Assembly (NCBI RefSeq): GCF_029543085.1
Contig: NZ_CP119967.1
Coordinates: 3,932,501-3,996,500 of the forward strand
Origin: Pseudomonas sp. A34-9
GTDB lineage: Bacteria; Pseudomonadota; Gammaproteobacteria; Pseudomonadales; Pseudomonadaceae
Length of the DNA: 64,000 nt
Reading direction: 5' to 3'
Shown here: one piece after another, positions 3,850 through 11,660 of the stretch
How the letters are laid out: each line of letters starts with the position of its first letter
How positions within the stretch are numbered: position 1 is the stretch's first letter
The notes under the pieces: model-generated
Told to the model about the DNA's origin: nothing
Database searches by the model: none
Seen by the model: only the letters and a program-made list of their open reading frames with translations
Position numbers and translations under genes: made by a program

Positions 3850-3887
3850 ACCGCTCTCAAGTTCATCACCCTCCCACAGGGTTCGGC

Positions 3888-4070
3888 GGTGTTTACACAT
3901 TCTCTGACTTGCACAAATCCCTGTAGGAGTGAGCCTGCTCGCGATGAGGCCAGTACATTCAACATCAACGTTGTCTGACCTGACGCCTTCTAGAGCAGGT
4001 TCACTCCTACAGGGTTCGGCAGTGTTTACACATTCTCTGACCAGCACAAATCCATGTAGGAGTGAGGCTG
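3888..4070. repeat. Duplicated REP-type palindromes
   Basis: Two inverted palindromic units (tgtaggagtgagcctgctcg at 3922 and its mirror near 3990-4013) lie between copies of a direct repeat of about 60 bp. The copies are at 3888-3936 and 4011-4070 and share ttcggc, gtgtttacacattctctga and gcacaaatcc. The second copy abuts the regulatory site at 4083. The rest of the 3850-4310 gap holds the two moaA-side operator copies listed separately; I see no gene in it. Confidence 0.8.
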
Positions 4071-4082
4071 TTACAAAACATT

Positions 4083-4124
4083 GTCTAATCGCTATTAATG
4101 ACCGCCTTATCGAAAGCATCTATC
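4083..4124 (-). promoter_or_regulatory. Composite LysR-type operator, leftward copy near moaA
   Basis: Read on the minus strand this is GATAGA-N5-TCGATA (4124-4108), 17 bp, then GATTAGAC (4090-4083). It has exactly the spacing of the copies before moaB, the LysR gene and fdhD. The dyad is a T-N11-A LysR box and TTAGAC resembles a -35 element. It points left, away from moaA, into REP repeats with no gene on that strand. It may be an orphaned divergent promoter or a second regulator-binding site. Confidence 0.6.
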
Positions 4125-4195
4125 ACGGCTAAAAACCCTTTATTTACGGGGTGTTGCGAAACTAACAAGGCAACTTTCGGCGAAAAACAATTCAT

Positions 4196-4259
4196 CATCG
4201 ACGGCATCAATCAGCTGTTCATTAACAGTGATTGGACGGTACTGAAAGTTAGCCATAAC
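4196..4259 (+). promoter_or_regulatory. Composite LysR-type operator and promoter of moaA
   Basis: A degenerate dyad CATCGA-N5-TCAATC (4196-4212) is followed after 17 bp by GATTGGAC (4230-4237). The TTGGAC part can serve as a -35, with CATAAC at 4254-4259 as a -10 (16-bp spacer). This puts a start near 4266 and leaves a leader of about 45 nt before moaA. The fuller stretch around GATTGGAC (AGTGATTGGACGGTACT) matches the moaB-side copy at 15 of 17 positions. Confidence 0.6.
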
Positions 4260-4310
4260 CTGCGCTGACCGAATCCCTTCAACCGGGGTTTTCATTCCTG
4301 CGAGGCTGTC

Positions 4311-5309
4311 ATGTCAGAGCGTGTCTTGATCGATGGTTACAACCGCCGCGTCGACTATCTGCGCATGTCGGTGACCGACCGCTGCGACTTCCGCTGCGTC
4401 TATTGCATGGCCGAAGACATGCAGTTTCTGCCAAGGCAAAAAATCCTCACGCTGGAAGAGATCTATCAACTGGCGCAGCGCTTTGTGGCGCTCGGGACAC
4501 GCAAGATTCGCCTCACCGGCGGCGAGCCGCTGATCCGTCCGGGCGTGGTCAAGTTGTGCGAGCAGATCGCCGCCCTGCCCGGCCTGCGCGAGCTGTGCAT
4601 GACCACCAATGGTTCGCAATTGGGCAAACTCGCCGCGCCGCTGTTCGACGCCGGGGTCAAACGCCTGAACATCAGCCTCGACAGCCTCGATGCGCAGCGC
4701 TTCAAACAGATGACCCGCACCGGCGATCTGGCGCAGGTGATCAACGGCATCGATGCCGCGCGCAAGGCCGGTTTTACCCGCACTAAACTCAATGTCGTGG
4801 TGATGCAGGGCCGCAATGATCAGGAGATCAACGATCTGGTCAGCTTCGCGATCGACCGCCAGCTCGACATCTCCTTCATCGAAGAGATGCCGTTGGGGAT
4901 TATCAGCGAACACAGTCGTGCCGAGTCGTTTTTCTCCAGCGCCCAGGTGCGCGAAAAGATTGCCGAACGCTACACCCTAATCGACTCGGCGGAATCGACT
5001 CAAGGTCCGTCGCGTTACTGGCGACTGGCCGAAGCGCCGGACATTCGTCTGGGGTTTATCTCGCCGCACAGTCACAACTTTTGTGGCACCTGCAACCGCG
5101 TACGGCTCACCGTTGAAGGGCGCCTGCTACTGTGTCTGGGTAACGAGCATTCGGTGGATCTGAAAGCGGTGCTGCGTGCGCATCCGGGGCAACCGCAGAG
5201 GCTTGAGAAAGCCATCATCGAGGCGATGAAACTCAAGCCCTATCGGCACAATTTCGAAGTCAACGACGATGTTCAGGTCGTACGTTTCATGAACATGACC
5301 GGCGGCTAG
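4311..5309 (+). CDS. moaA: GTP 3',8-cyclase MoaA (molybdenum cofactor step 1)
   Basis: MoaA is a radical SAM enzyme that, with MoaC, converts GTP to cyclic pyranopterin monophosphate in the cytoplasm. The 332-residue protein has the SAM-cluster motif C25-x3-C29-x2-C32, the LTGGEP motif at 68-73, and the C-terminal second 4Fe-4S motif C258-x2-C261-x13-C275. It ends in the diagnostic Gly-Gly tail required for catalysis. It stands apart from moaC/D/E (10.4 kb) but shares the composite operator motif with them. Length and motifs are complete and there is no sign of damage. Confidence 0.97.
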
Positions 5310-5344
5310 ACCGCCCCTATCAAGGGTTATCGGAACCGCACAGC

Positions 5345-6244
5345 ATGATCATCAGACCCAAGGTCAACCAGTTCGCCATTCTCTTCACCCTCAAGGGTTC
5401 GATCGCCAAGCGCATTGCCCTGCGCACGTTGATGGTCACCCTGCTCGCCTCAGCCATCGTGCTGGTGGAAATCCTCCATCCGAGCAACTTCACCAAGGTC
5501 AATGCCACGCCGTTTACGTTGCTGGGTTTGTCGCTGTCGATCTTCATGAATTTTCGCAACAACGCCTGTTATGACCGCTGGTACGAAGCGCGCAAGGCGT
5601 GGGGCGAGGTGATCGTGCATATTCGCTCGGTGATTCGCGAAACCCATGTGATTCGTGAGTCTGCGGAGCGCAAGCCGTTGCTGCTCAACCTGTGCGGCTT
5701 TGCCCATGCGCTGAACGCGCGGTTGCGCCGGGAAAGCGAAGCGGCGGCCAGCAGTGCCTGGATCACGCCGAAACACGATGCGCAGGTCCCGGACTACAGT
5801 GGGCGGATTCTGCAGCAGGTCGGCCAGCAGTGCTCCGACCTGCATCAAAATGGCGAGTTGAGCGAGTGGCGCTACATGCTGCTGGCTAACCACCTGACCA
5901 GCCTGACCCAGTCACAAGCGGTATGCGAACGGATCAAGAACACCCCGCTGCCCTTCCCCTACACCCTGCTGCTGCACCGCACGATCTACCTGTTCTGCCT
6001 CCTGCTGCCGTTCGCCATGGCCGAACCGCTGGGCTGGCTGACGCCGCTGTTCACGGCGATTGTCAGCTACACGTTCTTTGGTCTGGATGCGATTGCCGAT
6101 GAACTGGAAGACCCGTTTGGCCGCGATGAAAATGACCTGGCAACCGACTCGCTGGTGCGCACCATCGAGCGCGACATCCTCAGCGAACTGGGCGTGACCG
6201 ACCTGCCGCCGATGCTGATGCCGGTGGACTATGTGCTGAGTTGA
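5345..6244 (+). CDS. Bestrophin/UPF0187-family (YneE-like) channel protein
   Basis: The 299-residue membrane protein has the family layout. N-terminal hydrophobic segments (TLMVTLLASAIVLVEIL and LLGLSLSIFMNF) lead into the hallmark FRNNACYDRWYEARKAWGE. Further helices include TIYLFCLLLPFAM, and the conserved acidic DELEDPFGRDENDL stretch lies near the C-terminus. Bacterial homologues form pentameric ion channels in the inner membrane. It starts 36 bp after moaA on the same strand and may be co-transcribed, but nothing links it to cofactor synthesis biochemically. Confidence 0.85.
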   Translation: MIIRPKVNQFAILFTLKGSIAKRIALRTLMVTLLASAIVLVEILHPSNFTKVNATPFTLLGLSLSIFMNFRNNACYDRWYEARKAWGEVIVHIRSVIRETHVIRESAERKPLLLNLCGFAHALNARLRRESEAAASSAWITPKHDAQVPDYSGRILQQVGQQCSDLHQNGELSEWRYMLLANHLTSLTQSQAVCERIKNTPLPFPYTLLLHRTIYLFCLLLPFAMAEPLGWLTPLFTAIVSYTFFGLDAIADELEDPFGRDENDLATDSLVRTIERDILSELGVTDLPPMLMPVDYVLS

Positions 6245-6312
6245 GCCTTGGCTCTCCAAGCTCCCACAGGTTCTGTGTACATACTCAATATCAAGCATCA
6301 CCACAAATCAAA

Positions 6313-6402
6313 TGTAGGAGTGAGCCTGCTCGCGATGGCGCCGGTACAGTCCACATCTTCGTCGACTGACCCTCCGTCATCGCGAGCAGGCTCGCTCCTA
6401 CA
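6313..6402. repeat. REP palindrome pair
   Basis: Two inverted copies of the tgtaggagygagcctgctcg unit (6313-6340 and 6379-6402) with a short centre form a long imperfect hairpin between the convergent bestrophin and moeA genes. This is a typical intergenic 3' location for Pseudomonas REP pairs. Confidence 0.85.
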
Positions 6403-6461
6403 GGTTTTGCATTCACAGCCGAGTATTGATGAGCGCTCCCACGGTTTGATTGGTGGTGAGG

Positions 6462-7667
6462 TCAGAACAGTTCGCTGAAGGGAATAAAGCGCAGGGGATC
6501 ACCGAGGCTGTGGGTAGTGTTTTCCCGGATTTCCACCAGGCCATCGGCCCAGGTCGCGCCGAGCAGGACGCCGGAGCTCTGGTTCGGATAGAGCACCGCA
6601 CGCCCCGCCTCCAGCCTCACCCGCAGGTATTCACGGCGGCCGCCAGCCTTGTGCCAGTCGAAACCTGCATTGACCGTAAAACTCAGCGGCATGACGTCTT
6701 CGACACCTTGTATGCGCAGCAGATACGGCCGCGCCAACAAGCCAAACGTCACCAGGGCCGAGGTCGGATTACCCGGCAGACCAATCACCGGCACCGTGCC
6801 GAAATGGCCCACGGTCAGCGGTTTGCCAGGCTTGATCGCCAGTTTCCACAACAGCGGTTTGCCGCTGTCGCGCAGCACCTGACCGAGACAATCGGCATCA
6901 CCGGCAGACACGCCGCCCGTGGTCAGAATCAGATCAGCGCTCACTTGCAGTTGCTCGAGTTTAAGCCGCGTCTGAGCCGGGCGATCCGGGAGGATCCCGG
7001 CGTCGATCACCTCGCAGCCCAGCTCACGCAACCAGTGGCCGAGCAATACGCGGTTGCTGTTGTAGATGCTGCCGGGGCGCAACGGCTGACCCGGTTCGAC
7101 CAGTTCATCACCGGTCGACAGCAGCGCCACACGCGGGCGACGCACCACGTGCAGTTGCGCCAGCCCTTGCCCGGCGGCGACTGCCAGTTCGAACGGCCCA
7201 AGACGTTTGCCGGCCCGCAGCAGGATGTCGCCGACGCGATTTTCCTGACCTTGCGCGCGGATGTTCTGCCCCGCCTTCAGCGGCTGCAAGAAGCGCACGC
7301 GGCCGTCCTCCAGCACTTCGACGTTCTCCTGCATCTCGACACAAGTGGCGCCGGGTGGCAGCGGTGCGCCGGTAAAAATCCGTGCACAGGTGCCGGGCAG
7401 CAACGTGTCCGGCGCCAGCCCCGCGTAAACCTTTTGCGAGACCTTCAGCGGCTGTCGGTGCCGATCGGCGAGATTGAGCGCGTAACCGTCCATGGCGCTG
7501 TTCGGCCATGGCGGCAAGTCGAGTGTCGCCACCAGATCACTGGCCAGCACCCGCCCACGCGCATCGTCGAGCGCCAGCAGTTCGCTGTCGGCCAGGCATT
7601 GCTCATTGGCCATGCCGAGCAATTGGTCGAGGGCGTCCTCGACCGGCATCAACGCGGCCTTGCTCAT
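6462..7667 (-). CDS. moeA: Molybdopterin molybdenumtransferase MoeA
   Basis: MoeA inserts molybdate into adenylylated molybdopterin, the last core step of cofactor synthesis. The 401-residue protein shows the family signatures PPWPNSAMDGYAL (about 52-64), FTGAPLPPGA, RVALLSTGDEL, TTGGVSAGD, KPGKPLTVG and GLPGNPTSALVTF, with the small C-terminal domain intact. I use ATG 7667; longer frames read back into moaB. Its start overlaps the moaB stop by 4 bp, so the two are translationally coupled in the order moaB-moeA. Confidence 0.95.
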   Translation of the reverse strand: MSKAALMPVEDALDQLLGMANEQCLADSELLALDDARGRVLASDLVATLDLPPWPNSAMDGYALNLADRHRQPLKVSQKVYAGLAPDTLLPGTCARIFTGAPLPPGATCVEMQENVEVLEDGRVRFLQPLKAGQNIRAQGQENRVGDILLRAGKRLGPFELAVAAGQGLAQLHVVRRPRVALLSTGDELVEPGQPLRPGSIYNSNRVLLGHWLRELGCEVIDAGILPDRPAQTRLKLEQLQVSADLILTTGGVSAGDADCLGQVLRDSGKPLLWKLAIKPGKPLTVGHFGTVPVIGLPGNPTSALVTFGLLARPYLLRIQGVEDVMPLSFTVNAGFDWHKAGGRREYLRVRLEAGRAVLYPNQSSGVLLGATWADGLVEIRENTTHSLGDPLRFIPFSELF

Positions 7668-8203
7668 CCGCGTGGTCCGCAGGCTTGCACGGCTTTCAGG
7701 TGCGGGACGAAGTTGCACGGGCGATGACGGTTGTCCAGCTGCTCGGCAAGAATGCCTTCCCAGGCGGTGCGGCAAGCGCCGGTCGAACCCGGCAGGCAGC
7801 ACACCAGCGTGCCGTTCGACAGCCCGGCCAGCGCACGGCTTTGCACGGTGGACGTACCGATGTCCAAAATCGAAATCGCCCGGAACAGTTCACCAAACCC
7901 GTCGATCTGCTTATCAAACAAGCACGCCACCGCTTCCGGCGTACTGTCGCGACCGGTGAAACCAGTGCCGCCTGTGATCAGCACCACCTGAATGCCTTCG
8001 TCGGCGATCCAGTTCGCTACCTGAGCGCGGATCTTGTACAGATCGTCCTTGAGCAAGTTGCGCTCGCTCAACGTGTGGCCGGCTTCCAGCAAACGACTGA
8101 CCAGCAATTGGCCCGACGTATCGCTGGCGTAATCGCGAGTATCGCTGACCGTCAGCACGGCAATATTCAGGGGGACAAACAGGGCATCCGCTTTCACGCT
8201 CAT
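7664..8203 (-). CDS. moaB: Molybdenum cofactor biosynthesis protein MoaB
   Basis: MoaB/MogA-fold proteins bind molybdopterin and adenylylate it before molybdenum insertion. The 179-residue protein begins with a MoaB-like lead (FVPLNIAVLTVSDTR) and carries the substrate-site motifs ITGGTGFTGRD and LPGSTGACRTAW. The ATG at 8203 is preceded by the composite operator at 8267-8308, divergent from the LysR gene at 8493. It forms a two-gene operon with moeA through a 4-bp overlap. Confidence 0.94.
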   Translation of the reverse strand: MSVKADALFVPLNIAVLTVSDTRDYASDTSGQLLVSRLLEAGHTLSERNLLKDDLYKIRAQVANWIADEGIQVVLITGGTGFTGRDSTPEAVACLFDKQIDGFGELFRAISILDIGTSTVQSRALAGLSNGTLVCCLPGSTGACRTAWEGILAEQLDNRHRPCNFVPHLKAVQACGPRG

Positions 8204-8266
8204 GGCAGTTCTCCGGCAGCAGTCAATCAATATTGCCGAGCAGCCTAAGTGCCACTTATGAGTACT

Positions 8267-8308
8267 GTCTAATCACTCTGGCCAACCACATTATCGACCT
8301 GCTCTATC
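8267..8308 (-). promoter_or_regulatory. Composite LysR-type operator of moaB-moeA
   Basis: On the minus strand: GATAGA-N5-TCGATA (8308-8292), 17 bp, GATTAGAC (8274-8267), about 64 bp upstream of the moaB start. The dyad is nearly identical to the rightward copy at 8349-8365, differing only in the centre. The two composite sites are arranged back to back in the 289-bp moaB/LysR gap, as expected for a divergently acting regulator. Confidence 0.65.
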
Positions 8309-8348
8309 GGTGCCTTTGACGTCGTTCAAGGCCAGTAAAACCGGGCCT

Positions 8349-8390
8349 GATAGAGCTGATCGATAGTCCCTTAAACACTTCCGATTGGAC
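8349..8390 (+). promoter_or_regulatory. Composite LysR-type operator of the LysR gene
   Basis: GATAGA-N5-TCGATA (8349-8365), 17 bp, GATTGGAC (8383-8390). GAT-N11-ATA contains the LysR T-N11-A core. It lies about 100 bp before the GTG start at 8493, suggesting autoregulation. It is one of five copies in this cluster with identical 17-bp spacing. Confidence 0.65.
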
Positions 8391-8492
8391 GTATATCCGT
8401 TCAGATGAGATCGTCGCACCCTGCGCTTTTCGTGCGTCTCGCGCATCCGCGTCAATACTCAATCAAAAAATCCCCATCGAGCAGGTGCCATC

Positions 8493-9392
8493 GTGGACAT
8501 CAAACAACTCAAGTTCCTGATCGCGCTGGACGAAACCCGCCACTTCGGCCAGGCCGCCGCACGCTGCCACATCACCCAGCCGACGTTGTCGATGCGCCTG
8601 CGCAATCTGGAGGACGAGCTGGATCTGGTGCTGGTCAACCGTGGCCAGCGCTTTGAAGGTTTCACCCAGGCCGGCGAGCGCGTGCTGGCCTGGGCACGCA
8701 CTTTGCTCGCCGCTCATGACGGTTTGTTCGCCGAAGCGGCGGCGTGTCGGGGGCAACTGGTCGGTAGTTTGCGTTTGGGTCTGGTGCCGCTCAGTAGCTT
8801 CAACCCGGTCAATTACATTCAGGGTCTGTCGGGGACGTATCCGGAGTTGAAATTCAGCCTGTCGTCGCTGAGTTCCGACGAGATCATTGCCGGGCTGGGC
8901 AACAATCAGCTCGATCTGGGCGTGTGTTACCTCGATCACGTCAACCCGAGCTATTTCGAGTTTTTCGAGATTGGTGAAACCCGTGTCGGCCTGCTCTACG
9001 ACAACCGGCATTTCCATTTCGAAGGCTCGGAGATGAGCTGGGAAGACGCCGCCGAATTGCCGCTGGGGATGATCACCGCCGGTATGCATTACCGTAAATC
9101 CATCGACCTTAGCTTCCGCAGCCGTGGGCTCAGCCCGCAGCCGATCATGGAAAGCGATTCGACCTATCAGCTGTTGCAGGCGATTCACCAAGGTTTCTGC
9201 TGCGCGATCATGCCGCTGGACAGTGGCCTGGAAGAGCCGATCGAGCACCTGTCGTTCATGCAGTTGCCGGATGCCAGTGTGCTCGCGCCGCTGGGCCTGG
9301 TGATGCGCAAGACCGAACCGCGCTCGGCGATTGCCGAGAAGTGTTTTGCCGAGGCGCGGAGGTTGTTTGGGGTTGAGGTTTCTGCCGAGTAA
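8493..9392 (+). CDS. LysR-family regulator, candidate controller of the molybdenum cofactor genes
   Basis: The protein has 299 residues from a GTG start preceded by GAGCAGG. The N-terminal helix-turn-helix (MDIKQLKFLIALDETRHFGQ, then HITQPTLSMRLRNLEDEL) is of the CysB/OxyR-like subgroup. An effector-binding domain follows, with the usual SLRLGLVPLSSF entry strand. It sits between moaB-moeA (divergent) and fdhD-moaCDE. The composite T-N11-A/GATTrGAC motif precedes this gene and each of the three surrounding transcription units, so I infer it binds that motif. The ligand (molybdate, formate, cofactor precursor or other) is not visible. E. coli-type ModE is a different family. Confidence 0.9.
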   Translation: MDIKQLKFLIALDETRHFGQAAARCHITQPTLSMRLRNLEDELDLVLVNRGQRFEGFTQAGERVLAWARTLLAAHDGLFAEAAACRGQLVGSLRLGLVPLSSFNPVNYIQGLSGTYPELKFSLSSLSSDEIIAGLGNNQLDLGVCYLDHVNPSYFEFFEIGETRVGLLYDNRHFHFEGSEMSWEDAAELPLGMITAGMHYRKSIDLSFRSRGLSPQPIMESDSTYQLLQAIHQGFCCAIMPLDSGLEEPIEHLSFMQLPDASVLAPLGLVMRKTEPRSAIAEKCFAEARRLFGVEVSAE

Positions 9393-9411
9393 ATGATGTT
9401 GTCTGTCAGGC

Positions 9412-9480
9412 CGCCTTCGCGAGCAAGCTCGCTCCCACAGTTGAAATGCATTCCCCTGTGGGAGCGAGCTTGCTCGCGAA
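9412..9480. repeat. REP palindrome pair
   Basis: Inverted copies of gtgggagcgagcttgctcgc separated by a short spacer containing gaaatgcattcccc, between the LysR gene and the fdhD promoter. The same pair type recurs at 15217, 41341, 53809 and 57259. Confidence 0.85.
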
Positions 9481-9522
9481 GACGCCAGACCAGACAGCAA
9501 ATATCTTGGATCTAAAGGTGTT

Positions 9523-9564
9523 GATCGACCAAAGCAATCACCACATCGGAACAAGCGATTGGAC
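9523..9564 (+). promoter_or_regulatory. Composite LysR-type operator of fdhD-moaCDE
   Basis: GATCGA-N5-GCAATC (9523-9539), 17 bp, GATTGGAC (9557-9564), then fdhD at 9620. The dyad is the weakest copy, but the T-N11-A core (GAT-N11-ATC), the 17-bp spacing and the GATTGGAC block are all kept. Confidence 0.6.
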
Positions 9565-9619
9565 GCACTTTTAACGCCCCCGTAGCCTGAACACTCTTCA
9601 GCGCTTCGGGACTTTTCAG

Positions 9620-10465
9620 ATGCTCTGCCACGTCGAAACCCTCACAGAATCCACCACCGAACCCAACGCCCCGGCACCGCAACCGGCGCAAGTGGCATTT
9701 CGCGAATACCTGCCGAACGCCCCCCTCTCCCAAGTCGCCCTGGCCTCGGAAATCGCCCTGGCCATCACCTACAACGGTGTAAGCCAGGCGGTGATGATGG
9801 TCTCGCCCGGCAACCTCGAAGACTTCATCCGTGGCTTCAGCCTGAGCAACGCGATCATCGACAGCGTCGAGGAGATTTACGACATCCGCCTCACGCATTT
9901 CGACCAGGCCTGTCAGGCCGATGTGCAGATTTCCAGCCGGGCGTTCTGGGCCTTGAAGGATCATCGTCGGCAAATGACCGGCACCAGCGGTTGCGGCATC
10001 TGCGGCGTCGAAGCGCTGGAGCAGGCGCTGCCGCAACTGCAGATCCTGCAACCGTCACCATTGCCACCGGCAGCGCATTTCGACGGCATCCGTCAACGTA
10101 TCGAAGAGGTCCAGCAACTGGCGCGCAGCAGCGGTGCCCTGCACGCCGCGCTGTATTTCAACGGCGACGGTGAAGCGCTGTTGTGCCGCGAAGACATCGG
10201 CCGCCACAACGCTCTGGACAAGTTGATCGGTGCGATGCAATTCGACGCCATCGATGCCGCTGAAGGCTTTGTAGTCGTCACCAGCCGATGCAGCCTCGAA
10301 CTGATCCACAAAGCCGTGCGCGCCCGCCTGCGCACCCTCGTCAGTCTGTCAGCGCCTACCGCACTGACCGTGCGTTGGGCGCTCAAGCACCGGCTCAACC
10401 TGATCCACGTGCCGCACCGCAACGCCCCGCGAATTTACAGCCCGATCCAGGAGTTTTGCGCATGA
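9620..10465 (+). CDS. fdhD: Formate dehydrogenase accessory sulfurtransferase FdhD
   Basis: FdhD passes sulfur from IscS to the molybdenum cofactor so that formate dehydrogenase becomes active. The 281-residue protein has the family signature TSGCGICG with the sulfur-carrying pair C125 and C128. It also has the conserved ALITYNG-like opening ([10 protein letters not shown]), [16 protein letters not shown] and the RCSLELI region. It is the first gene of a tight operon: its stop overlaps the moaC start (ATGA). No formate dehydrogenase structural gene lies in the window. Confidence 0.95.
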
Positions 10466-10947
10466 GCCACACCCTCACCCACCTCGACGATCAGGGCCGC
10501 GCCAACATGGTCGACGTCAGCGACAAAGCGGCGACCCGTCGCGAAGCCAGCGCGCAAGCCTGGGTGCAGATGCGCCCGCAAACCTTGCAAATGATTCAGG
10601 CCAACGGTCACCCCAAAGGTGATGTCTTCGCCGTGGCGCGGATTGCCGGGATACAAGCGGCCAAGCGCACTCACGAACTCATTCCGCTGTGCCATGCGCT
10701 GTTGCTCAGTTCGATTCACCTCGAACTCAAGGTTTGCGAACCGGATCGCGTGCAGATCACCAGCACCTGCCGCCTCACCGGCCAGACCGGTGTCGAACTC
10801 GAAGCGCTGACCGCCGCCAGCGTCGCCGCGTTGACCATTTACGACATGTGCAAAGCCGTGGACCGGGCGATGGTCATCGGCGACATCCGCCTGCTCAGCA
10901 AACAGGGCGGTCGCTCGGGCCACTTTCAATGGGAGGACACGCAATGA
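10462..10947 (+). CDS. moaC: Cyclic pyranopterin monophosphate synthase MoaC
   Basis: MoaC converts the MoaA product to cyclic pyranopterin monophosphate. The 161-residue protein has the expected active-site blocks: [12 protein letters not shown] (18-29), [13 protein letters not shown] (68-80), GVELEALTA (110-118) and YDMCKAVDR (127-135) with K131. The start ATG overlaps the fdhD stop and the stop overlaps the moaD start, so translation is coupled on both sides. Confidence 0.96.
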
Positions 10948-11195
10948 TCCTGATCAACTACTTCGCCAGCTACCGTGATCGGCTCAATCTGGGCGGTGAA
11001 AAAATCCCGCTGACTGAGGCTTTGAGCTGCGTTGAAGATGTACGGCAAATGCTCATGGCGCGCGGCGAGTTGTGGCGCGAAGTGCTCGGCGCCGGCAACC
11101 TGATGTGCGCGGTGAATCAGGAGCTGTGTCAGCCGAATCAGGCGATTGAAGATTTCGATGAAATCGCCTTTTTTCCGCCCGTCACCGGGGGTTGA
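10944..11195 (+). CDS. moaD: Molybdopterin synthase small subunit MoaD
   Basis: The 83-residue ubiquitin-fold sulfur carrier ends in the required Gly-Gly tail (PPVTGG), which is thiocarboxylated and delivers sulfur to the pyranopterin within molybdopterin synthase. It starts inside the moaC stop (ATGA overlap) and is three bases from moaE. It is too short for confident recognition alone; position and the GG tail decide it. Confidence 0.93.
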
Positions 11196-11198
11196 TCG

Positions 11199-11660
11199 AT
11201 GGCTATTCGAGTCCAGTACAAAAGCTTCGATGTCGGCCAGTTGACTGCCGATCTGCACGCGCGCAATCCACGGGTGGGCGCGGTGGTGAATTTCATTGGT
11301 TATGTGCGTGATCTGAACATTGGCCAGCGCGTGAATGAACTGTTTCTTGAGCACTATCCGGGCATGACCGAAAAAGCCCTCGAACAGATTGCCGAAGAAG
11401 CTCGCGAGCGCTGGCCGCTGTTGGGCGTGGAGATTGTGCATCGGGTCGGTGCGTTGTCGGTGAGTGAGCCGATCGTGTTTGTCGGGGTCAGCAGTAAACA
11501 TCGGCACATGGCGTTCGAGGCCTGCGCGTTCATCATGGACGTGCTCAAGACCCGTGCGCCGTTCTGGAAGCGTGAGACCACGGCGCGAGGTTCGCATTGG
11601 GTCGAGGCCCGCGACAGCGACCAGAATGCCGCTTTGCGCTGGAGCCTGGCGCACGCCTGA
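11199..11660 (+). CDS. moaE: Molybdopterin synthase catalytic subunit MoaE
   Basis: The large subunit of molybdopterin synthase, 153 residues. It shows family blocks GAVVNFIGYVRD, LFLEHYPGMTEKAL, VEIVHRVGALSVSEPIVFVGVSS and KTRAPFWKRE with the active-site lysines. It is the last gene of the fdhD-moaC-moaD-moaE unit and is followed by a family-4 repeat. Confidence 0.96.
   Translation: MAIRVQYKSFDVGQLTADLHARNPRVGAVVNFIGYVRDLNIGQRVNELFLEHYPGMTEKALEQIAEEARERWPLLGVEIVHRVGALSVSEPIVFVGVSSKHRHMAFEACAFIMDVLKTRAPFWKRETTARGSHWVEARDSDQNAALRWSLAHA

Follow-up and report, generated by a model that had tools for sequence, protein, structure and literature searches.

What holds together the molybdenum-cofactor genes of a 64,000-nucleotide stretch of Pseudomonas sp. 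A34-9 DNA (NZ_CP119967.1, positions 3,932,501 to 3,996,500; this whole stretch is referred to below as the window and numbered from its first letter), and to what signal do they respond? Five copies of a composite motif lie between positions 4083 and 9564, each a dyad GATMGA-N5-TCRATM followed at a fixed distance by GATTRGAC. The original prediction, made from the letters alone, read them as the regulon of a LysR-type regulator of molybdenum cofactor (Moco) synthesis, encoded in the same cluster and here called LysR1. Comparison with several hundred loci and genomes supports the element while changing its theme: quite probably, each copy is a 42-bp operator-promoter of a formate-responsive LysR-type activator governing a formate-oxidation regulon, and most likely the regulon is one for formate, into which cofactor synthesis has been recruited, rather than a Moco regulon.

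A scan of the window bears out the five sites on their respective strands (Table 1), with a distance of exactly 17 bp between dyad and GATTRGAC in all five. The predicted consensus holds exactly for three of them (4083-4124 on the minus strand, 8267-8308 on the minus strand and 8349-8390 on the plus strand), while two depart from it by one base each: 4196-4237 starts with CATCGA, and 9523-9564 has GCAATC in place of TCRATM. That such identical spacing is improbable by chance, as had been argued, is confirmed by dinucleotide shuffles of the window (n = 100), which gave a mean of 0.04 matches at three or fewer mismatches, with five matches in none. It had also been claimed that every copy precedes a cofactor unit; this does not hold for 4083-4124, which faces to the left and away from moaA, with no gene ahead of it. 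The 6.54-Mb genome was scanned with the original pattern at up to two mismatches and, at up to three, with a version containing T24, a position described below. A sixth, unlinked copy was found outside the window at genome positions 340858-340899 (minus strand), directly after the gene for a paralogue of LysR1 (LysR2) and followed by fdhD2 and a 911-codon frame with an FdhF/YdeP-family oxidoreductase (FDH2). Weaker matches lie at 2296697 and 3020968 (two mismatches) and 5303039 (three mismatches); one at 3117945 was rejected as a regulon site, since no regulon gene accompanies it and it falls at the end of a 945-aa frame.

Each 42-bp copy comprises the T-N11-A dyad, a second T-N11-A box and the putative -35 element TTRGAC, and is accompanied by a -10-like element. 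The second box, formed by T24 and A36, lies exactly 21 bp (two helical turns) after T3 and A15 of the first and runs into TTRGAC; column 24, within the 17-bp spacer, had been missed by the original prediction. In the window and 80 named Pseudomonas loci, which were chosen by LysR protein and not by motif (the best 80 of more), T24 is present in 200 of 200 distinct gap-17 copies. It is likewise present in all 135 distinct exact sites and in all 294 distinct sites assigned to a gene at three or fewer mismatches, a set that includes pattern-chosen loci; T24 played no part in choosing the sites for any of these counts. The set of 294 omits 17 matches without an assignable gene within 450 bp, 16 of which also have T24, the exception (L092:1526) lying opposite a real site. 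When gaps of 5-30 bp were allowed, all 110 exact copies in the window and the 80 LysR-chosen loci had a gap of 17, as did 235 of the 237 copies there at up to one mismatch, the other two having a gap of 8; with pattern-chosen loci added the figures are 173/173 and 331/334, a count that is biased because many of those loci had been retrieved with the 17-bp pattern. The candidate -10 element, 18 or 19 bp beyond TTRGAC as counted by eye, has its own consensus at each gene (TAGCCT for moaA and fdhD1, TAGTCT for fdhD2, TAG.CT for moaB and GATCGT for lysR). LysR-type regulators characteristically use a recognition site together with an activation site at -35. Comparison thus supports both the identification of the dyad as a LysR-type T-N11-A box, a motif discussed in the available text of PMC5002191, and the proposed overlap of GATTRGAC with a likely -35.

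The genes behind these sites are the main evidence as to what the regulon is for. Within 400 bp upstream of the FdhF/YdeP-type formate dehydrogenase gene FDH1, the 80 loci have a site (up to three mismatches) in 46 of 46 cases; for moaB the figure is 61 of 61, for moaA 52 of 56, for fdhD1 25 of 32 and for LysR1 55 of 78. The corresponding figures are 0/52 for moeA, 0/34 for moaE, 0/30 for chrA, 2/53 for bestrophin, 3/38 for moaC and 2/42 for moaD; the sites therefore mark the first genes of units, and the predicted co-regulation of moaA, moaB-moeA, the LysR gene and fdhD-moaCDE is supported by this comparison. The loci L047, L062, L065-L068, L072, L075 and L076 keep LysR1, with no site at up to three mismatches and no detected Moco genes in the flank. 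The exact pattern occurs 71 times in 95 related genomes, in 44 genomes that are all Pseudomonas (59 Pseudomonas were sampled, A34-9 included); the 36 genomes of other genera have no exact site, and the reversed-pattern control gave 0. By our own reading of the neighbourhoods, 70 of these 71 sites precede formate dehydrogenase, fdhD, moaA, moaB, lysR, bestrophin or FNT genes; the only other is the 4083-4124 copy of the window. LysR (E <= 1e-90) is present in all 44 site-bearing genomes, and the two Pseudomonas genomes without it, G013 and G028, also have no exact site. The predicted co-occurrence of the motif with this LysR is supported by this set. A larger draw, from which chosen sites were examined among the matches listed, had an exact site in 271 of 398 Pseudomonas genomes, with a reversed control of 0 in every row. 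One site in G605 precedes mobA.

The copy at 4083-4124 is best understood from its relatives. Among 56 moaA neighbourhoods (55 from the named loci plus the window, restricted to moaA matches of > 75% identity flanked by 1.5 kb or more), a divergent formate dehydrogenase gene is found in 46, all with a site facing it; the gene is absent in nine, and so, in all nine, is the facing site. The window is the sole one of the 56 with such a site but without the enzyme gene. Homology to five relatives that bear the gene ends at window position 4070. In the relative L012, a TATCCT -10 is followed by the dehydrogenase gene, where the window has ACTCCT at 4058-4063 and then repeat-rich DNA; repeats resembling repetitive extragenic palindromic (REP) elements occupy the place of the gene and adjoin the site. 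Because such sites track the presence of the dehydrogenase, the homology ends where it does and the -10 has been replaced, 4083-4124 has the appearance of a promoter left over from a lost FdhF/YdeP-type formate dehydrogenase and not of an element of moaA. The candidate reading of this site as half of a paired moaA control region was rejected on the same tracking and on its orientation away from moaA. The FDH1 of L012 and the FDH2 of A34-9 score 920 and 953 bits with TIGR01701 (FdhF/YdeP), against a cut-off of 582, and FDH2 is the only close copy of the lost enzyme in the A34-9 genome.

LysR1 itself matches 44 NCBIfam models, the 25 best of which are all LysR-type regulators, and its PDB matches include OxyR, BenM, CatM and other LysR-type chains. 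The best-scoring model, covering nearly its full length, is that of CynR, the cyanate-responsive LysR. CynR was rejected as the family of LysR1, with 110.8 bits against an equivalog cut-off of 277 and no cyn genes among the named neighbours. ModE was rejected as well, none of the 25 best models being ModE; that regulator is similar in touching molybdenum-related genes, but belongs to another protein family and, by the present evidence, has another signal. LysR2, encoded at genome positions 340919-341785, is 64% identical to LysR1, with 59 of 64 residues equal in the DNA-binding region (2-65) and 127 of 230 beyond it. Two LysR copies are present in 10 of 57 LysR-bearing Pseudomonas genomes, most of the others having only the LysR2-like form, which adjoins its own site and fdhD2-FDH2 in the neighbourhoods examined. 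To judge from these sequences, the simplest reading is that LysR1 and LysR2 share a common operator, which either protein may bind, and cross-regulation is possible.

The link to formate comes in part from Pseudomonas putida. The available text of PMC10308882 reports, from RNA-seq, that formate raises expression of PP_0256, of fdhD (PP_0257), of PP_4596, of moaA (log2 2.4) and of moaB-II (log2 4.3), and that the induction of PP_0256 and PP_4596 persists without the Fdo and Fmd enzymes. No regulator is named for these genes in that portion of the paper, and the word LysR does not occur in its main text.

Channel genes form a second line of evidence. Bestrophin, a member of a bacterial anion-channel family, is a frequent companion of the regulon, either as part of the moaA unit or standing by itself behind an operator of its own; companions of this sort were seen in the window, in G004, G011, G017, G030, G032, G039, G043, G047, G051 and G052, and in others. 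The search covered 65 genomes, including G486, G749, G787, G796, G726, G735 and G605, which had been added for their sites, and 30 of the 33 matching neighbourhoods were examined. In 10 of 58 relatives chosen independently of the motif, bestrophin stands without moaA within about 1.5 kb, and all ten have an operator (up to three mismatches) just upstream; with the site-chosen genomes G796, G735 and G486 added, the figure is 12 of 13. The exception is G486, in which the operator drives an FNT channel gene instead. The order site, formate/nitrite channel gene, moaA is found in G049, G020, G486, G749 and G787; the channels of G049 and G749 belong to FNT family PF01226, and the frame in G020 was judged by eye only. 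That of G049 scores 244.6 bits with TIGR00790 (cut-off 232.3) and falls under the cut-off of the formate-specific FocA model (171 vs 290). Bestrophin is absent in four of the five FNT genomes, which is weak as evidence because 35 of the 65 searched genomes are without it, and strict mutual exclusion of the two channels was rejected, as G486 carries both. We would suggest, tentatively and with rather more doubt than for the regulon as a whole, that the bestrophin of the regulon serves as a channel for formate (or formate/bicarbonate) and is interchangeable with FocA-type FNT channels. A second bestrophin-like gene in the A34-9 genome (G000:C1:3429750-3430466) is 33% identical.

The distant homologues examined outside Pseudomonas include those of all six genomes of other genera in the order and family that were found besides G882, and those of six of the 46 records matched in a plasmid collection. 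Sites fitting a relaxed core with zero to two mismatches precede fdhD and a formate dehydrogenase gene in G1066, G1078, G929 and G854 and a formate dehydrogenase gene in G238; in G1066, whose LysR homologue is 44-45% identical, the fit is complete. No site was found in G1118, which has the enzyme, or in G863, where the contig ends near the gene. The Salmonella IncHI2 conjugative plasmid L251 encodes a 57% identical LysR, CydAB and an FdhF/YdeP enzyme, with a two-mismatch site (9713-9754) before cydAB. A Proteus record has a formate dehydrogenase gene beside LysR, with a two-mismatch site that lies upstream but on the opposite strand, and a four-mismatch site facing the dehydrogenase gene. For comparison, 0.58 Mb of Markov null sequence modelled on the Klebsiella, Salmonella and Proteus loci contained no site at up to three mismatches and three sites with four. 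In Paraburkholderia a LysR homologue of 31-33% identity is followed by a three-mismatch site and next by the gene for an NAD formate dehydrogenase that belongs to the 2-hydroxyacid-dehydrogenase family, a type that uses no molybdenum. In G238 a LysR of 41% identity also lies upstream of an fds operon, with a weak four-mismatch site between them, and in G295 one of 34% identity lies beside fds; seven of the nine fds loci examined had no LysR match at E <= 1e-5. In two non-Pseudomonas loci (L234:8663-8729 and L252:9500-9566), a strong site and a weak one opposed to it apparently have the palindromic dyad in common.

The formate-regulon reading is preferred because of the targets, the dehydrogenases that adjoin the distant homologues and the induction by formate in P. 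putida, and the cofactor genes look like a recruited subset, because the Pseudomonas enzymes need the cofactor. The molybdenum-cofactor theme of the original prediction is not supported: formate dehydrogenases recur across lineages, accompanied in some by formate or anion channels, and one homologue's operator-like site precedes a dehydrogenase of the molybdenum-free family.

Starting from the sites, their geometry, their gene associations and the missing gene whose site is left in place, the mechanism may be pictured as follows. One LysR dimer would occupy the strong dyad GATMGA-N5-TCRATM as its recognition site, and a second the weaker T-N11-A box 21 bp downstream, abutting the -35 TTRGAC; the promoter, with a -35/-10 spacer of 18-19 bp, would depend on the activator, and the fixed 17-bp gap would reflect the geometry of the LysR complex with RNA polymerase. 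The signal would most likely be formate itself. The regulon would equip the cell for oxidising formate, taking in the FdhF/YdeP-type dehydrogenase or dehydrogenases, FdhD, moaA, moaB-moeA, moaCDE, mobA in one genome and a channel of either the bestrophin or the FocA-type FNT kind, and it would include its own regulator, the acting regulator being LysR1 or, in most Pseudomonas genomes seen, its close paralogue LysR2. A34-9 would have lost one of its two dehydrogenase genes, leaving the operator at 4083-4124.

Several observations weigh against this account. For 23 of 78 LysR1 genes no site lies within 400 bp (four of these have one about 800 bp upstream), nine of the 80 loci have no site anywhere in the retrieved flank, and no site at up to three mismatches precedes moaA in L056 (its second copy), L085, L087 and L088. 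Thirteen of the 57 LysR-bearing Pseudomonas genomes have no exact site; among the LysR neighbourhoods of ten of them (G001, G004, G014, G017, G024, G025, G041, G042, G044 and G056, with G027, G036 and G039 left out), nine have a site with one or two mismatches, and G001 has none at up to three. Nor are any of the counts made up of independent events, because the loci are phylogenetically related, and they also overlap. Farther afield, the Klebsiella locus L250 has bestrophin, FdhF/YdeP and LysR genes in a row with a best site of only five mismatches, the Azospirillum locus L253, with fdhF and hyf genes, likewise has a site only at five mismatches, L235 has a LysR homologue beside an FdhF/YdeP enzyme and no site at up to five, and the scan found no site in Azospirillum L255, an unannotated stretch in which tblastn places fdhD-like and formate-dehydrogenase-like stretches beside LysR. 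As to P. putida, the PP_ genes are equated with the present loci by gene order and by their FdhF/YdeP description in the available text of PMC10308882, which also indicates that the 240 mM formate used alters respiration and, according to the authors, pH.

The most probable of the alternatives, though we think it unlikely, is that LysR senses a related cue, be it formaldehyde, low pH or a small anion (such as cyanate, azide or bicarbonate), and that formate induces only indirectly. In its favour, E. coli YdeP has been tied to acid stress and FdhD has been reported to be formaldehyde-induced (both as cited in the part of PMC10308882 available), CynR is the best NCBIfam model even if far under its cut-off, and the site of the Salmonella plasmid homologue precedes cydAB. 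Against this, the lineage-wide neighbours are formate dehydrogenases of several unrelated classes, joined in Pseudomonas by FNT channels, and the same text indicates that formate suffices to induce PP_0256 and PP_4596, with or without Fdo and Fmd.

Less probable still is a true Moco regulon, in which LysR would sense molybdate, the cofactor or the demand for it and mainly tune Moco synthesis, formate dehydrogenase being one client. Three sites of the window do precede Moco or fdhD genes, and the mobA site of one genome adds to these, but the most constant targets are the formate dehydrogenases (FDH1 without exception, and the order LysR2, site, fdhD2, FDH2 in most loci examined). FNT and bestrophin genes carry sites as well, the operator-like site in Paraburkholderia precedes an enzyme that needs no Moco, and the scan of the A34-9 genome, in which the neighbourhoods of 2296697, 3020968 and 5303039 were not covered, yielded no further Moco site. 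That some other transcription factor binds the motif, LysR being a mere neighbour, is very improbable: no binding experiment was found and the pairing of LysR with the sites comes from sequence comparison, but the sites have the T-N11-A form, co-occur with LysR and adjoin LysR genes in several cases, if not all, even at 31-45% identity, and it is in the DNA-binding region that the two paralogues are conserved. A chance or repeat artefact, to which the REP-like repeats beside the 4083 relic and ahead of the 9523 site might have pointed, is refuted by the shuffles, the reversed controls and the gene specificity and can practically be dismissed.

A LysR serving a formate-responsive formate-oxidation regulon would have relatives among known systems. 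Oh and Bowien, in the title of a 1999 paper, reportedly presented FdsR as the regulator of the fds operon. In the available text of PMC7057948, FdsR of Cupriavidus necator (PH16_RS03165) gives formate-inducible expression with a Km of 130 uM, and the available text of PMC3615186 labels fdsR of Methylosinus as LysR family; a LysR serving formate oxidation is for these reasons an already known kind. FdsR would resemble the present regulators in giving formate-inducible expression, and a LysR related to LysR1 stands upstream of the G238 fds operon; FdsR differs in acting on the fds operon, whereas LysR1 and LysR2 are tied, through separate promoters, to FdhF/YdeP, Moco, FdhD and channel genes. 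The comparison with C. necator FdsR is one of function as described, its family being unstated in the part of PMC7057948 available. The A34-9 genome has no match to PF11390 (FdsD), and the neighbours of LysR1 and LysR2 are Moco and FdhF/YdeP genes, not fdsGBACD. E. coli YgfI (DhfA), a LysR reported in the available text of PMC9068703 to be important for formate utilisation, shares the link to formate metabolism; it has other targets there (dhaKLM and hyc/hyb), and no link to the present operator was seen in that text. The formate response of P. putida (PMC10308882, available text) agrees in the kinds of genes induced. With LysR-type regulators in general the present system shares the two T-N11-A boxes, the second at -35, and the adjacent or divergent regulator gene, but differs in having a complete unit of 17-bp geometry at each of several targets, the regulator's own gene included. 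Among the open-licence PMC papers searched, none was found to describe a Pseudomonas regulon whose single operator covers dehydrogenases, FdhD, Moco synthesis and channels.

The features of the window are collected in Table 1. REP-like inverted repeats adjoin several of the units (3858-4070, 6300-6420 and 9415-9500), and such repeats also precede the 9523 site.

Table 1. Genes and candidate operator-promoters of the window (-35 and -10 elements are putative)
Feature	Position	Strand	Basis or details
Operator-promoter copies, all five	4083-4124, 4196-4237, 8267-8308, 8349-8390, 9523-9564	-, +, -, +, +	window scan
LysR1, LysR-type regulator gene, GTG start	8493-9392	+	NCBIfam LysR-type matches
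Operator-promoter of lysR	8349-8390	+	dyad 8349-8365; second box T8372..A8384; -35 TTGGAC 8385-8390; -10 GATCGT ~8409-8414
Operator-promoter of moaB-moeA	8267-8308	-	-35 8267-8272; -10 TAGGCT 8242-8247
moaB	7664-8203	-	TIGR02667
moeA, downstream of moaB in a common unit	6462-7685	-	MoeA-type matches, best under cut-off (350 vs 440 bits)
Operator-promoter of moaA-bestrophin	4196-4237	+	-35 TTGGAC 4232-4237; -10 TAACCT 4256-4261
moaA	4311-5309	+	TIGR02666
Bacterial bestrophin (anion-channel family), second gene of moaA unit	5345-6244	+	PF25539, 332 bits
Operator-promoter of fdhD-moaC-moaD-moaE	9523-9564	+	-35 TTGGAC 9559-9564; -10 TAGCCT 9583-9588
fdhD (formate dehydrogenase sulfurtransferase)	9620-10465	+	TIGR00129
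moaC, moaD, moaE	10465-11660	+	profile matches; moaD models just under cut-off
Apparent vestigial operator of lost FdhF/YdeP-type formate dehydrogenase	4083-4124	-	dyad, second box and -35 retained; ACTCCT in place of the -10
Repeat-containing spacer in place of relatives' formate dehydrogenase gene	3858-4070		comparison with relatives

If the formate-regulon reading is right, it assigns a likely regulator, operator and signal to the response of Pseudomonas to formate, and this genus finds use in one-carbon biotechnology. The joint rise of cofactor synthesis, FdhD and the dehydrogenases would then be accounted for, a formate sensor would be available for testing, and a substrate for bacterial bestrophins would be suggested. 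The window itself also provides an apparent example of gene loss in which the promoter has stayed in place.

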